Shown here piece by piece: positions 12,725-19,515 of a stretch of DNA of 64,000 nucleotides. Origin of the DNA: Deltaproteobacteria bacterium. Lineage in GTDB: Bacteria > Myxococcota_A > Polyangia > Polyangiales > Polyangiaceae. Every line of letters starts with the position of its first letter. The first letter of the stretch is position 1. The stretch is from assembly GCA_016218915.1 (NCBI GenBank), contig JACRCQ010000076.1:36618-100617 (forward strand). The letters are read 5' to 3'. The notes under the pieces were generated by a model that was not told the origin of the DNA, made no database searches, and saw nothing but the letters and a program-made list of their open reading frames with translations. The position numbers were made by a program, and so were the translations under genes.

Positions 12725-14749
12725 TCAGCGCGGGAGGCTGCGCTCGAGGAACCTGGCAGCGCGTGCCATCAGCTCGATCATGTTCTCCACCCGGTCGACC
12801 GAGTGTCCTTCGTTGGCAGCGACCATGTACTCGACCGGAACTCCGCGCGCGCGCAGTGAACGCACGATCTGATCAGACTCGGAGCGCGGGACCCGCGGGT
12901 CGTTTTGTCCCTGGTAGACGAACAACGGGTCGACGATCTTGTGCGCATCGGCAAGAGGCGAGGTCGAATCGAGGAATGGTCCGTCCTTGTCCACGCTTCC
13001 AAACTCCTTGGACAGGAAGCTGGCGATGTAGCCTGCCGTGGATGCCATGAACGATCTCCAGTGCGACGGGCCCACGAGGTCGATGCCAGCGCTCCACAGG
13101 TCTGATTGCCGCGTGAGCGCCATGAGCACCATGTAGCCGCCGTAGCTTCCGCCAAACACCACCATGCGTCGTGCGTCGGCCCACGGTTGGCTCGCAGCCC
13201 ATCGGCCCACAGCTTCCATGTCCTTGACCGCATCGAGACGTCGGGGGCCGTTGTCTGCCATCTCCCACGCGCGTCCGAAGCCGGTCGAGCCACGGATGTT
13301 TGGCTCGACGACCGCATAGCCGAGGGCAGAGAACCAACGGGTGAATGCGTTCCACTGGATCGACGAGGACGCCGCAGGGCCGCCGTGGAGCGTGACGACC
13401 ACCGGCAGCTTTGGGGGTCTCGCGGCGGAGGACGGAAGATACAGATTCACGGGGACCAGCTGGCCGTCGAACGAAGCGACCTGCACGATCGAGGTCTCGA
13501 TGGCGGGCAGCGAGGCAAGGGTCGGTCGCGCCTCCCTGCGAAGCGGCTGGACAGCGCCGCTGGCTACGTCGATGCGAAAAACTTCAGGCGGCCGATCCGC
13601 GGTGGACCACGTTGCGGTCAGATGCTTGCCGTCTTCGGAGAACCTGCCCGCGCTGCCCGAGCCCAGCGCAAGAGTCACCGGGCGGCGGACCTGGAGCGTG
13701 GCCGCGTCGAGGATCCTGAGCTCCTTGTGGTTGCCAGCATCCACGGTCAGACCTAGCGCTCCGCCTTTGCGGCTCACGGACACCGACGTGATGCGGGCCG
13801 TTGCCGGGTTGGATTCGACGTAGCGCGCCTTGTGCTTCAAGGTTGCCAGGTCGAGCGCGATCAGCGTGCCGGTCTCTCCCCCGTCGTCCGTCGCGATGAA
13901 CACGCTCCGGGCGTCAGCCGACAAGCTCGCGTCGTGCACCACCGCCGGCTTGCCGTCCGGGAAGATCACGCGGCCCGTGCCCCGCTTGAGATCCACCAGC
14001 AGGAGCTTGGATTCCGAGGGGGACTCGAACCGGATGAACAGCGCGCGGGAGCCGGTGGCATCGACATCTGCGAGCGCGCCTGGGGAGGGATCCGTGTAGA
14101 CCACCGTCGACTTGAATGCAGGCGAGGTGGGCTGGACCAGGATCCGGGTGGAGCGATCCGCGGCGCTGCGCGCGGAGTAGACCATGGTGGCCGGCGCGCG
14201 CTCGGGCAGGAAGGGAAGATCGCGGTGCAGCCTGTCTCCTGGCGTCAGCTCGACCAGGTGGCTGCCATCGAGATCCACGCGAAAGATCGAGTAGTTCTCG
14301 TCTGCGCCGCGGTCGGACAGGAACACCGCGGACTTGCCGTCGCGCTCCAGGCGCGCCCCTGCGACGGCTTCCGAGGTGTTGACGATGCGCAAGGGGGGAG
14401 CCTCGGGGTGTGCGAGCTCGCCCACGTACAGCTGCTGGATGCCGGGCATGTTGGAGCGAAAGAGGAAGCGCTTGCCATCTGGGGCAAGCTCCGCGTCGCG
14501 ATCGTGGAAGGCTGCCACGATGCCTTCCGCCTTGCGTGCGAGCTCCGCAACGCGTGCTGCCGGCTCCCCTCGGACCACGTCCGGATCAGAGTCGGCCGGC
14601 AGCCTGGCGGAAGCTGCGGGCACGGTCGTGGAGGCAGCTGCGACGGGTGCAACTCCAGGGCCGCGAGCCGCCGGAGGGCGAGGTGAAGGGGCCGCTGGCG
14701 CGCAAGCGAACAGCGCTGCGGGCACAAGCGCAAGGGCAATCCTTCTCAT
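12725..14749 (-). CDS. Lipoprotein S9-family prolyl-oligopeptidase-like peptidase
   Basis: 674 residues. A signal peptide ends in a lipobox (ALFAC), so the enzyme is probably anchored on the cell envelope. A Pro/Ala-rich linker follows, then a beta-propeller region with TolB/DPP-like blades (RFLFRSNMPGIQQLYVGEL, SDRGADENYSIFRVDLDG). The C-terminal alpha/beta hydrolase has the nucleophile block FGGSYGGYM, an Asp in the NDPRVP block and the catalytic His in ANEGHSVDR, an intact triad for the family. Start at 14749 lies 5 bp after the stop of the ABC-like gene, so the two are coupled. The frame runs open further upstream only as a shadow. Likely a periplasmic peptide-processing enzyme. Confidence 0.88.
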   Translation of the reverse strand: MRRIALALVPAALFACAPAAPSPRPPAARGPGVAPVAAASTTVPAASARLPADSDPDVVRGEPAARVAELARKAEGIVAAFHDRDAELAPDGKRFLFRSNMPGIQQLYVGELAHPEAPPLRIVNTSEAVAGARLERDGKSAVFLSDRGADENYSIFRVDLDGSHLVELTPGDRLHRDLPFLPERAPATMVYSARSAADRSTRILVQPTSPAFKSTVVYTDPSPGALADVDATGSRALFIRFESPSESKLLLVDLKRGTGRVIFPDGKPAVVHDASLSADARSVFIATDDGGETGTLIALDLATLKHKARYVESNPATARITSVSVSRKGGALGLTVDAGNHKELRILDAATLQVRRPVTLALGSGSAGRFSEDGKHLTATWSTADRPPEVFRIDVASGAVQPLRREARPTLASLPAIETSIVQVASFDGQLVPVNLYLPSSAARPPKLPVVVTLHGGPAASSSIQWNAFTRWFSALGYAVVEPNIRGSTGFGRAWEMADNGPRRLDAVKDMEAVGRWAASQPWADARRMVVFGGSYGGYMVLMALTRQSDLWSAGIDLVGPSHWRSFMASTAGYIASFLSKEFGSVDKDGPFLDSTSPLADAHKIVDPLFVYQGQNDPRVPRSESDQIVRSLRARGVPVEYMVAANEGHSVDRVENMIELMARAARFLERSLPR

Positions 14750-14754
14750 CGCGC

Positions 14755-15636
14755 TCACTGCCAGATGGCGACCGCCTCGAGGAGCGTCGTGTCGCTCTCC
14801 CGAGCAGCGTCGAGCAGCACACGCGTCGTGGCGCCTTCGGGGAGACACACGATCATGCGCGGAGGGTCGCCGCGCACTTCGACGCCGGCGGCCACGGCGC
14901 GCTCGACGAAGGCAGGCTCGTTGCCGCGCACGACGATGGCGTAGAGGCGGACGCCCTTGAGCAGAGCGTCGGGCTGTCCGATCCAGCTCGTTCCGCTGTC
15001 GGACAGCAGGGCCACGCAATCCGCACCGAGCAACAGCTCACGCTCCGGGCTGGAGGGATCAGAGCGGAGGGCTGTGGCGATCACGGAGCGGGACTTGCAG
15101 GCCTGGCCGAGCACGTTCAGAACGTATCGCGCGGCCTGGGTCTCGAGCCCTGCCAGGGGTGCCTCGGCGAACAGCACGCTGGCACCTGGGAGCATCGCCT
15201 GGGCGATGACCGCGGCTCTTCGCTCGGCCAACGAGAGCGTTGGGGCCTTGCGCGTCTCGAGCGCGCGCAGCCCGAGGTCGTCCATGGCTGCGTGGGCGGC
15301 TGCTGCGGCTTCGGTGCGAGACAGACCTGCGAGGCGGAAGCTCACGGTCACGTAGGCGAGGATGCTGTCACGGTGCGGCAAGGGCAGATCCAGCGCAGCG
15401 ATACCGACATGCCCGAAGTGGGCGCCCTGGGCGACGTCCTTGCCGTTGATCAGAAGCGAACCGGACACGACCGTTCCACGCGACGAGATCGCTGCAGCGA
15501 TCGCTGCGCTCGGCGCGCCCGCGAGCACGAGACGTCTGCCAGCAGCCCGCAAGGCAAGCTGATCGCAGGCGGCCGCGCCTTCCACGTCGATGCGCGCGTC
15601 ACGTACCTCGATCGAGACATCGACGGGCTGTGTCAC
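14755..15636 (-). CDS. Degenerate ABC-transporter ATPase-like protein lacking Walker A
   Basis: 293 residues. The first 220 follow the layout of an ABC ATPase: an N-terminal beta sheet, a signature-like helix start LSLAERRAAVIAQAML and a Walker-B-like ASVLFAEAPLAGLE. But the phosphate-binding loop is LAGAPSAAIAAAIS where GXXGXGKS/T should be, and the Walker B Asp-Glu is Ala-Glu. ATP hydrolysis is therefore unlikely. The last 70 residues are a separate small domain. GTG start at 15636, overlapping the SppA fusion stop (GTGA). No transmembrane permease gene is nearby. I infer a regulatory or structural pseudo-ATPase; it could also be a decaying gene, though the frame is intact and tightly coupled. 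Confidence 0.6.
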   Translation of the reverse strand: MTQPVDVSIEVRDARIDVEGAAACDQLALRAAGRRLVLAGAPSAAIAAAISSRGTVVSGSLLINGKDVAQGAHFGHVGIAALDLPLPHRDSILAYVTVSFRLAGLSRTEAAAAAHAAMDDLGLRALETRKAPTLSLAERRAAVIAQAMLPGASVLFAEAPLAGLETQAARYVLNVLGQACKSRSVIATALRSDPSSPERELLLGADCVALLSDSGTSWIGQPDALLKGVRLYAIVVRGNEPAFVERAVAAGVEVRGDPPRMIVCLPEGATTRVLLDAARESDTTLLEAVAIWQ

Positions 15637-18155
15637 GGCGTGTCCGCAACCTCCATCCTGGCTAGGGGGCTATCGGGATCGTAGATGAGGAAGGGGGCAA
15701 GCGGGCGAAGCAGATTGAGCATCTGCGCGGGGACCGAGGCGCGCAGCTCTTCGCTGCTGGCGTGCAGCCCAGCGGCGTTGGCCACGATGTCGAGCAGGGA
15801 GCTTTCCGGGACCGGAAGCTCGATCACCGGACTGTCGTCTTCGACCCCGGCGAGGGAGCGTGCCTCGGCGAGCGCCTGGCGGAATCCGCCGAGGCGATCG
15901 ATGAGCTTGTGGTTGAGGGCCTGCCTGCCCATCCACACGCGACCCCGGGCCACCGCATCGACCTTGTCCGCGCTCATGTGCCGTCCACGGGAGACCCGGT
16001 CGATGAACACGTCATAGAACTGCTTGACCTTTGCGCCGAGCAGCTTCTTCTCCTCGTCAGTGAATGGACGGAACACCGACTCGGCGTCGGCGTGCGGAGC
16101 GGTTCGCATCGTCTCGACCGTGATGCCAACCTTGGTCAGCAGCTGGGCGATGTCAGCCTTGCCGTAGAAGATGCCGATCGAGCCGGTGGTGGTGTACGGG
16201 GTGGCGAAGATCAGCTTGCCGGGCGTTGCGGCGTAGTAACCGCCGCTTGCGGCCACCGTACCCATGGACACGATGAGCGGCTTCGCGCGCGCGATCAGCT
16301 CGGCCTCGCGCCAGATCACGTCAGCGGCCATCGACGAGCCGCCGGGGCTTTCGATGCGGAACACCACGGCGCGCACGGACGGGTCTTCGCGAGCGGTCTT
16401 GAGCGCCTTGGCGATGGTGTAGGAGCCGGCCAGGCGCATGCCGAGCAGCGGCACCTTCCGGCTCTCGCCGTCGATCATGTCGCCGTCCAGATACACGACT
16501 GCCACGCCTGGGCGCTCGCCGAAGGACCGGTCCTCGACCGGCTCGTAGTCGTCGGTGAGCGACGACGAGCGTCCGCCGAGCACCTCGTAGACCACACGCC
16601 GAAGCTCGTCGTCGTAGGCGTAGCCGTCCACCAGCCGGGCGCGAAGCGCCTCGGAAGCCGTGAACGGGCCGTTGTTGATGCTCGCGCGCAGCGCCGCGGG
16701 ATCGAGGTGCCGGCCACGGGCCACGTCGGCGACGAACTCGGACTCGGTCTCGCGCATGTTGGCCGCGTTGGCCTCTCGCGCAGCCTGGCTCGCCCCTTCG
16801 TGCGTGAACTCCTCTGGGGCGCCCTTGTACGCGCCGATGCGCACGAACTCTGCGCGCACACCCAGATTGGTCAGGAGCCCGGCCAGGTAGATGCGCTCGG
16901 ACTTGAGCCCCGAGAATCGGATGCCACCCGCAGGATTGAGCACGATGCGATCCGCGTGCGAGCACAGGTACAGCGCGCGCGAACCCTCGGATTCCATGTG
17001 GCAGATGACCTTCTTGCCGTGCGCGCGAAGCAGCTGCACCGCGTCGGCCATCTCGTTGGCGTGGGCCATCGAGGACGCAGGCTCGGTCTTGAGATGGAAG
17101 ACGACCGCGTCGATCTCCGGGTCGCGCGCCATCGTCCAGAGCTTCTGGAGCATGTGGATGTGGCGACGATTGGACGGCGTGCTCGTGATGCGAAAGCGCA
17201 CCGCGTGGGCGGGGGCTGGAACACCCGGGTCGCGCCATCCCCGGACCGAAACGCCGGTGACGAATCCCGCTCCGTCGCGCCCTCCAATCGCACCACCGAA
17301 CACGCCGCCGCCGGTCAGAACCATATGCGGGAACGTCAGGTCGATCAGCGCCGAGGCCGCGATCTCGCCCTTGGTGCTCTCGGGAGTCCGGGGCAGCATG
17401 GCCAGGTCCCCGCGGATCCGCCCGACGTACGGCACGTCGAAGGCGAGCACCCCGCGCGGCACCCAGCTCTTCTTGCTCTCGTCGCCGAAGTAGCGCGCCT
17501 CCAGCCCGACCTCGAGCGAGCTGTCGCCCAGGGGGCGCACGGAAGCTCCGAGATTGTAGCTCCGATCAATGCGATTGCCCGCGCTGCCCGAAGGGGCGTT
17601 CAGATCCTGGGCCACGGCTGCGACCGACAGGAATCGCGCAGGGCGCCCGGTCCAACCGAGCGAGATCGACGTCGGCCCGTTCACGGTCGCGTCGTTCGAG
17701 TAGACGTGCGCGATCGACATGCCGAGCGACGAGCTCTTGCCTCCGAAAGAAAGGCCCCACGTGAGCCAGGAGTACGGCGAGTCGTAGGGTGCAGGGGCGT
17801 GGTTGGGCGGACGCAGGAAGTCGAGACGGACGCCGGTTCCGAAGCCGAACGGAAGGGCGCCCGCAAGTGCGAACGAGTGCCCTCGCGCTGAGGACGTTCC
17901 TTCCATTCCCGTGCGCACCCAGTTCCATCGGAACTCGGCGCCTGGCATGAACGTCAGGTTGGCCGGGTTGACCACCAGCGCCGAAGCGTCGTCGCTGCTC
18001 GCGACGGCGCGTCCGGGCTCGGGTACGCGTTGGGCGCGGGCGGCGGGTGCCGCAAGCTCCTGTGCCTGGGTGCTGCGAGCCGAAAGCAGCAAGGCCGGCA
18101 CGATGCCGGCAAGGGCGAGGGCCGAGAGTCGACGAAGCCAGAGTCCGCGGTTCAT
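15633..18155 (-). CDS. Outer-membrane beta-barrel fused to SppA-type signal peptide peptidase (S49)
   Basis: 840 residues with a Sec signal peptide cut near residue 31. Residues about 45-310 have the alternating hydrophobic/aromatic strands of an outer-membrane barrel-like domain (FRWNWVRTGMEG, ISLGWTGRPARFLSVAAVAQDL, LEVGLEARYFG). Residues 320-840 are two S49 repeats of SppA. The catalytic dyad is preserved: Lys444 in RIGAYKGAPEEF and Ser637 in GTVAASGGYY. SppA normally sits in the inner membrane with one N-terminal anchor and digests cleaved signal peptides; here that anchor is replaced by a barrel-like domain. ATGA overlap with the gene upstream and GTGA overlap with the one downstream show translational coupling. 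Domain calls are by eye. Confidence 0.82.
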   Translation of the reverse strand: MNRGLWLRRLSALALAGIVPALLLSARSTQAQELAAPAARAQRVPEPGRAVASSDDASALVVNPANLTFMPGAEFRWNWVRTGMEGTSSARGHSFALAGALPFGFGTGVRLDFLRPPNHAPAPYDSPYSWLTWGLSFGGKSSSLGMSIAHVYSNDATVNGPTSISLGWTGRPARFLSVAAVAQDLNAPSGSAGNRIDRSYNLGASVRPLGDSSLEVGLEARYFGDESKKSWVPRGVLAFDVPYVGRIRGDLAMLPRTPESTKGEIAASALIDLTFPHMVLTGGGVFGGAIGGRDGAGFVTGVSVRGWRDPGVPAPAHAVRFRITSTPSNRRHIHMLQKLWTMARDPEIDAVVFHLKTEPASSMAHANEMADAVQLLRAHGKKVICHMESEGSRALYLCSHADRIVLNPAGGIRFSGLKSERIYLAGLLTNLGVRAEFVRIGAYKGAPEEFTHEGASQAAREANAANMRETESEFVADVARGRHLDPAALRASINNGPFTASEALRARLVDGYAYDDELRRVVYEVLGGRSSSLTDDYEPVEDRSFGERPGVAVVYLDGDMIDGESRKVPLLGMRLAGSYTIAKALKTAREDPSVRAVVFRIESPGGSSMAADVIWREAELIARAKPLIVSMGTVAASGGYYAATPGKLIFATPYTTTGSIGIFYGKADIAQLLTKVGITVETMRTAPHADAESVFRPFTDEEKKLLGAKVKQFYDVFIDRVSRGRHMSADKVDAVARGRVWMGRQALNHKLIDRLGGFRQALAEARSLAGVEDDSPVIELPVPESSLLDIVANAAGLHASSEELRASVPAQMLNLLRPLAPFLIYDPDSPLARMEVADTP

Positions 18156-19300
18156 TCAGGTCCTGCCTGCGCGATTTGCATGCCTCGCGCCTGAGCCACT
18201 TCAGCGATCTCGGGTCGGCGCCGCTCCAGCTCCTCCATGTCCTTGACCGGCAGGAAGCGCGAGACAGCGCCGAGACGGGGAAGGTGAAGGAATCGTGTCG
18301 CAAGCGTGGAAGTGATCTCGCCGATCAGCCGCTCGAACTGCACGGCCTTCCGGTCCCCGACCTTCTTGGACACCTGCACCCAGGTGAACTCCATGTCCAG
18401 ATCGAGCAGCGCCCGCGCCGTAACCAGGAACGTGTTCGTGTTGAACACACGCACGGTCGTGGGATCGAACTCGCGCGGCAATCGGAACTCCTCCAGGATC
18501 AACCGGCGTCCATTCCAGCGGACCGGGATGCCCCCCTTGTCGCTGCCGAGCTTGTCCACGACCTCCACTGTGACCGGGTCGCGGTGCTGGATGTGCGCCC
18601 CGAGGATCGCGGGGTCGATCGTTGCGCCCAGATTGTCGATGTTGGCGATGGCGACGTACTTGCCGCCCCGAGCGAGGAATCGCTCCAGCAGGCCGCTCCG
18701 GCGCAGCGCTGCTGGCAGGTCGCCGTGTCCCGGGGCGTACAAGCTCGGCTTGTCCCCCTCCTCCCGGAACAGATGTCCGTCCTCGGTGAGGCGAACCGAC
18801 AGGTTCTGCTGGAACGTCGCGATGTCGTCCTGCCGAAGGTGCGAGCCGAGCGCTTCGCGCAGCCGCGCATCGGTCGCATGGCTCGTCATCAGCCACAGCG
18901 GCACCTGCTTGGCGGCCAGCTTGCTCCAGTGCCTGTTTTCCGCGAGACGCAGATCGAGGAACGTCTTGTCCCCGAGCGCGGGCACCAGCGCCTTGACCAC
19001 GCCCCCCATGCGCGTGGCCATGCCGCCTGCGAGAACGACGACCGCGAGCTCGCCCCGGGCCAGAGACTGCATGCCCAGGTCACTGAGCGCCGCGTGCTCC
19101 GCCGTGCCCTGATCGGGCAGCTTCGCCAGATCGTCGGCAAGGGGCGCTGTCACTCCGCCCGGAAGTCGGTTTCGGGCATCGACGTCCTCGGCCATCCGTG
19201 ACGCGAGGCGCAACAACAGCTCAATCTCGAAGCCGTTTCGGGCCAGCTCGTCAAGCAGGTCTGCTGGAAGCGTCTTGATCTCGTGGGCCAGAGTTTCCAT
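18152..19300 (-). CDS. UTP-glucose-1-phosphate uridylyltransferase-like (eukaryotic-type UGPase/UAP family)
   Basis: 382 residues with the nucleotidyltransferase signature LAGGMATRMGGVVKALVPA and later family blocks (IANIDNLGATIDP, DKGGIPVRWNGR, VFNTNTFLV). These resemble the eukaryotic-type UGPase/UDP-GlcNAc pyrophosphorylase superfamily more than bacterial GalU. Such enzymes make UDP-sugars for envelope polysaccharides. The ATG at 19300 is preceded by GGAGG 7 nt away; an upstream ATG at 19348 has none at proper distance. First gene of the four- or five-gene minus-strand operon with the SppA fusion, pseudo-ABC protein and S9 peptidase. Exact sugar substrate is not evident. Confidence 0.78.
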   Translation of the reverse strand: METLAHEIKTLPADLLDELARNGFEIELLLRLASRMAEDVDARNRLPGGVTAPLADDLAKLPDQGTAEHAALSDLGMQSLARGELAVVVLAGGMATRMGGVVKALVPALGDKTFLDLRLAENRHWSKLAAKQVPLWLMTSHATDARLREALGSHLRQDDIATFQQNLSVRLTEDGHLFREEGDKPSLYAPGHGDLPAALRRSGLLERFLARGGKYVAIANIDNLGATIDPAILGAHIQHRDPVTVEVVDKLGSDKGGIPVRWNGRRLILEEFRLPREFDPTTVRVFNTNTFLVTARALLDLDMEFTWVQVSKKVGDRKAVQFERLIGEITSTLATRFLHLPRLGAVSRFLPVKDMEELERRRPEIAEVAQARGMQIAQAGPE

Positions 19301-19515
19301 CCCGTCCTCCGCACGAGCGGGAGCGCCGCGATCGTGGTGCGCAAGCATGGCCGCCGACAGCCTCGAGCGTCAATCGGAACGCGCCATCAGGTGCAGACCC
19401 CGACGATTCTCCCCGTCTGCGAAGAGGTGCGCGAGGGTGGACAGGGGTGCGGGGGAATACAATGACGGGCGTCCGGAGTTCGACTCTGGTAGTCTTTGGA
19501 TTTCGGCGGGGAGCC

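Follow-up and report, generated by a model that had tools for sequence, protein, structure and literature searches.

An open reading frame of 840 amino acids in the window, the 64,000-nucleotide stretch of Polyangiaceae DNA that we analysed, encodes, with very little doubt, an SppA peptidase fused to a FadL-like beta-barrel. With moderate confidence we favour a reading in which this barrel tethers a periplasm-facing SppA bowl to the outer membrane, where it would cut small hydrophobic or unfolded peptides. An earlier note made from the sequence had proposed an SppA peptidase joined to a barrel-like domain at 15633-18155. These coordinates are correct, and the gene lies on the minus strand, which the note left unsaid. 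A description of SppA or another S49 domain joined to a barrel was not found in the open-access literature that was searched. Both halves are known folds, and it is their combination, the location and the spread across phyla that appear to be undescribed. Since the two parts stay joined in one protein across the myxobacterial phylum and in two others, the fusion probably represents a genuine outer-membrane-attached protease that has been overlooked. The features of the gene and of its two direct neighbours are as follows.

15633..18155, minus strand: whole open reading frame, 840 amino acids, with signal peptide, FadL-like barrel and tandem S49 module (SppA 67K type)
18060..18155, minus strand: signal-peptide-like segment, residues 1-32, MNRGLWLRRLSALALAGIVPALLLSARSTQAQ, with an AxA-type cleavage site and without a lipobox cysteine (by inspection)
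17946..18032, minus strand: N-terminal hatch, residues about 42-70, with the FadL-type motif Asn63-Pro64-Ala65
17241..17936, minus strand: predicted 14-stranded beta-barrel, residues 74-305 (AlphaFold2, Foldseek, hhalign)
16521..17210, minus strand: first S49 half, residues about 316-545, with Lys444
15843..16508, minus strand: second S49 half, residues about 550-771, with Ser637
18152..19348, minus strand: UDPGP-type nucleotidyltransferase, upstream neighbour, on the same strand in 15 of 20 relatives
14755..15636, minus strand: degenerate ABC-ATPase-like protein, downstream neighbour, on the same strand in 12 of 20 relatives

The protease module is readily recognised. The NCBIfam model TIGR00705 (SppA 67K) scores 323.9 bits over residues 337-785, against a cut-off of 311.45, and Pfam finds two PF01343 stretches in the open reading frame. 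Because the NCBIfam cut-off is exceeded, annotation pipelines would name the protein a plain SppA and the barrel would stay hidden. In a Foldseek search, the S49 module matched the E. coli SppA chain 3bez with an E-value of 2e-40. Lys444 (within RIGAYKGAPEE) and Ser637 (within GTVAASGGYYA) align to positions 184 and 384 of this chain; adding 25, the same for both residues, gives Lys209 and Ser409 of the published E. coli SppA numbering. The catalytic dyad, which the earlier note had called intact, was thus confirmed, and both residues are present in all 49 fused proteins, as are the invariant Gly605 and Gly606. A cysteine pair at residues 385 and 398, in the first S49 half, is found in 28/28 sequences of the close-relative alignment but is missing from many other members (31 and 30 of 49, respectively); a family-specific disulfide is possible. 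With E. coli SppA (protease IV, 67K type) the module shares the tandem S49 arrangement, the Lys/Ser dyad and the fold, at about 29% identity over about 490 columns. The E. coli enzyme is held in the inner membrane by a single N-terminal helix (PMC9360617), whereas the fused protein carries a signal peptide and a predicted 14-stranded barrel in its place.

The N-terminal part of about 310 residues is not S49. Its first residues resemble a signal peptide, and similar hydrophobic N-termini are found in the relatives. AlphaFold2, run on the full protein with an alignment of only 11 members taken from the window and from genome loci, predicted 14 strands at residues 74-305 after a short helical hatch (pLDDT 79). 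The same 14 strands were predicted for the isolated N-terminal domain (pTM 0.81). When the isolated barrel was compared with known structures by Foldseek, FadL ranked first by E-value (3.1e-7), and the best match by TM-score, at 0.69-0.70, was chain F of the type 9 translocon (6h3i, 8gl6), a FadL-like chain that is a separate protein and not a fusion. Alignment by hhalign of a profile of the 49 fused proteins with FadL proteins of related genomes covered 245 columns with a probability of 97.4% and an E-value of 1.5e-11, compared to 1.6% and 0.03 for a reversed-profile control. The barrel-like region with a signal peptide that had been suspected from the sequence is therefore borne out by 14 predicted strands and by a FadL match beyond chance, and prediction on both the full protein and the isolated domain describes it more precisely as FadL-like.

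Membership in the known family is a different matter. The Pfam model PF03349 (FadL/TodX) reached 10.4 bits at residues 42-78, below its gathering cut-off of 29.7, and when the barrel domain of 11 members was scanned with Pfam and NCBIfam, no family exceeded its cut-off. As the PF03349 score is below the cut-off and the profile-profile E-value is 1.5e-11, we conclude from sequence comparison that the barrel is best regarded as a distant branch of the FadL superfamily and not as a member of PF03349. FadL/TodX channels have the 14 strands, predicted in our case, and the NPA hatch in common with the fused protein. They measure roughly 360-420 residues in solved structures, whereas the barrel part described here has about 290 and is followed by a protease. 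When the barrel alignment was used as a profile against the PDB, only ribosomal protein L17 (E 3.6e-4) and other unrelated weak matches came up, which we took as chance, and a weak 'kinase inhibitor' match to the barrel domain (E 0.0037) was dismissed.

The predicted strand limits also indicate how the barrel would sit in the membrane. In the AlphaFold2 model, the connections after odd strands comprise 9, 12, 8, 15, 7, 9 and 9 residues, and those after even strands 3, 3, 2, 7, 3 and 2 residues. In outer-membrane barrels the loops are long on the outside and the turns short on the inside. The even number of strands together with this alternation of short and long connections would place both ends of the barrel in the periplasm and so the S49 module on the periplasmic side. 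Both the barrel and its topology are in this sense results of prediction. A protease carried in the outer membrane, or in the outer periplasm, is what the earlier note had envisaged; the predicted FadL-like barrel supports the outer-membrane part, and the model puts the protease on the periplasmic face of that membrane and not outside the cell, a location that is itself a prediction. Arg207 (window positions about 17535-17537), in the turn after strand 8, is invariant in 49/49 fused proteins, and one might guess that on the presumed periplasmic rim it docks the protease.

There is precedent for a barrel combined with a periplasmic hydrolase. In PlpD, which carries an Omp85 barrel, the hydrolase has been shown to be periplasmic (PMC11116518). 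The domains of PlpD and of type Vd proteins (a 16-stranded Omp85 barrel, POTRA and a patatin-like domain) are unrelated to those of the fused SppA. With 14 predicted strands and no POTRA or patatin match in a Pfam scan, the fused protein is not of type Vd. FadL-like barrels followed by an extra C-terminal domain have been described for TP0548, TP0859 and TP0865 of Treponema pallidum (PMC8407342), where the additional domain is a helical (TPR) bundle, whereas it is an enzyme here.

We propose that the usual inner-membrane helix of SppA has been replaced by the signal peptide and the FadL-like 14-stranded barrel. The fused protein would be exported by Sec and its barrel folded in the outer membrane, leaving the tandem S49 module suspended from the last barrel strand on the periplasmic side. 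There, bound to the outer membrane, this module would probably build the tetrameric bowl known from E. coli SppA. The E. coli tetramer is believed to attack signal peptides once they have been set free in the periplasm (PMC9360617), and such chemistry does not conflict with a place at the other membrane. Likely substrates would be small unfolded or hydrophobic periplasmic peptides near the outer membrane, for example signal-peptide fragments, and the debris of failed lipoproteins and barrel proteins may be among them. We infer the outer-membrane location, the tetramer and these substrates, including the 'signal-peptide-like digestion' of the earlier note, from the architecture and from the E. 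coli enzyme. Provided that the topology holds, an enzyme seen as a scavenger of signal peptides at the inner membrane has here been relocated to the outer one and retained phylum-wide, which raises the question of which peptides need digestion at the outer membrane.

It seems likely that tethering is the role of the barrel, but its conserved residues suggest an alternative. The NPA motif is retained in the 49 fused proteins (Asn63 in 48/49, Pro64 in 49/49 and Ala65 in 46/49), a set of rows that includes a Fibrobacterota sequence whose N-terminal domain does not match the Myxococcota barrel profile. In FadL, the Asn-Pro-Ala of the hatch is reported to be essential for the substrate-induced change and opening (PMC8407342). 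As this gate motif is retained, the barrel may do more than anchor the protease, and the fused protein is possibly fed by its own FadL-type channel. In strand 3, R110 is invariant in the window's family and G108 and D112 are conserved at 90% or more; these alternating residues would face one side, probably the lumen. Such features would suit a functional FadL-type gate through which hydrophobic peptides or comparable molecules enter, from the outside or from the outer leaflet, to be digested by the S49 module on arrival, with feeding or the detoxification of lipophilic peptides as the purpose. On the other hand, the cargo of FadL consists of small hydrophobic molecules and not of peptides, and the NPA motif may owe its conservation to a role in hatch folding. 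We regard this main rival as unlikely. Its most elaborate form, in which FadL-type gates arranged around one SppA bowl would import and digest hydrophobic peptides, appears more doubtful still; to our knowledge, peptide uptake or detoxification by a one-protein channel-protease is not known in Gram-negative bacteria. A FadL-type barrel with a built-in enzyme offers a handle on the role of the NPA gate.

The likeness of the isolated barrel to the type 9 chain F, its best match by TM-score, could also be taken to favour a specific processing protease, one responsible for the maturation or shedding of certain outer-membrane or surface proteins, as a loose analogue of PorV-PorU in type 9 secretion. 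PorU, however, is a cysteine protease that acts on the cell surface. No conserved substrate gene was found near the fused gene in 20 relatives. The Pfam model of PorV matched in none of 13 relatives, but it was also silent in the control genomes. We consider a dedicated processing role improbable, and retain the peptide-cutting SppA bowl tethered by its barrel as the preferred reading.

The fusion itself is widespread. In the window's family, the full-length fusion was found in 33/36 other genomes; two more cross the junction but end early, and one has no good match. In other families of the same order 19 of 22 genomes carry the fusion, and phylum-wide a match spanning the barrel and both S49 halves was obtained for at least 82 of the 142 sampled genomes. 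Carriers include Pyxidicoccus and Nannocystis as well as two Poribacteria and two Zixibacteria. With a profile made from Myxococcota barrels only, those of Poribacteria and Zixibacteria are found at E-values of 1e-38 to 1e-22, compared to 1e-6 or worse for FadL proteins and 0.25 or worse for shuffled copies. The Fibrobacterota protein (L059) was rejected as a carrier of a homologous barrel; its N-terminal domain has an NPAG motif but does not match this profile. Another candidate (L077) was rejected as a fusion, since its upstream stretch is an over-long open reading frame ahead of an ordinary helix. A mis-join of two genes, which the earlier note had raised as a possible weakness, finds no support, as the relatives keep one gene and not two. 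The notion that two genes were joined by a frameshift or an assembly error, or that the leader is beta-rich by chance, is refuted by the conservation of the join, which recurs in the family relatives and across the phylum, and by the homologous barrels of two further phyla together with the fold and profile matches, and we give it hardly any credence. Sequence comparison establishes that the two parts are fused, that this fusion is conserved, that the dyad is intact and that either half has its homologues.

A tree built from 62 S49 regions places the 24 fused proteins of Myxococcota in one weakly supported group, and 3 changes suffice to explain the fused label on it, compared to 20.8 in shuffles. 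A single clade of all fused S49 parts was rejected (p-AU 0.0245), in line with the two fused Poribacteria proteins, which group with barrel-free members of their own phylum. Loss of the barrel or re-fusion must therefore have happened. Because the barrels of Myxococcota, Poribacteria and Zixibacteria are homologous, one old fusion with some later losses would be the simplest reading, although it is not proven. The genome to which the window belongs encodes, at another locus (contig 51, about 34.2-35.7 kb), a further S49 protein that lacks the barrel, so the fused form adds to an ordinary SppA and does not substitute for it. This barrel-free protein (L115) has one hydrophobic N-terminal stretch ending in GLGC, to be read as a membrane helix or as a non-canonical lipobox.

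The start codon of the fused gene and the TGA that ends the UDPGP-type gene upstream share bases (ATGA), and the downstream gene overlaps the stop by a few bases. These overlaps at both ends make the open reading frame part of a tight same-strand cluster. The ABC-ATPase-like neighbour scores below the Pfam cut-off and shows no recognisable Walker A on inspection; it is possibly a degenerate or regulatory ATPase. Neither of these conserved neighbours explains a protease role or points to peptide digestion. Two genes downstream (12725-14749, minus strand) lies an S9 prolyl oligopeptidase, which is likely to carry a lipoprotein signal (LFAC). It was rejected as a partner of the fused gene, the adjacency not being conserved in 20 relatives. 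M16 enzymes are degraders of small peptides. Genes for M16 (insulinase-type) peptidases directly follow the fused gene in both Zixibacteria loci (L040:7401-10136 and L051:8097-9443), and these two loci fit a peptide-clearing role. In one deep-branching member, a sigma-54 response regulator gene abuts the fused gene downstream (L124:2173-3612, minus strand).
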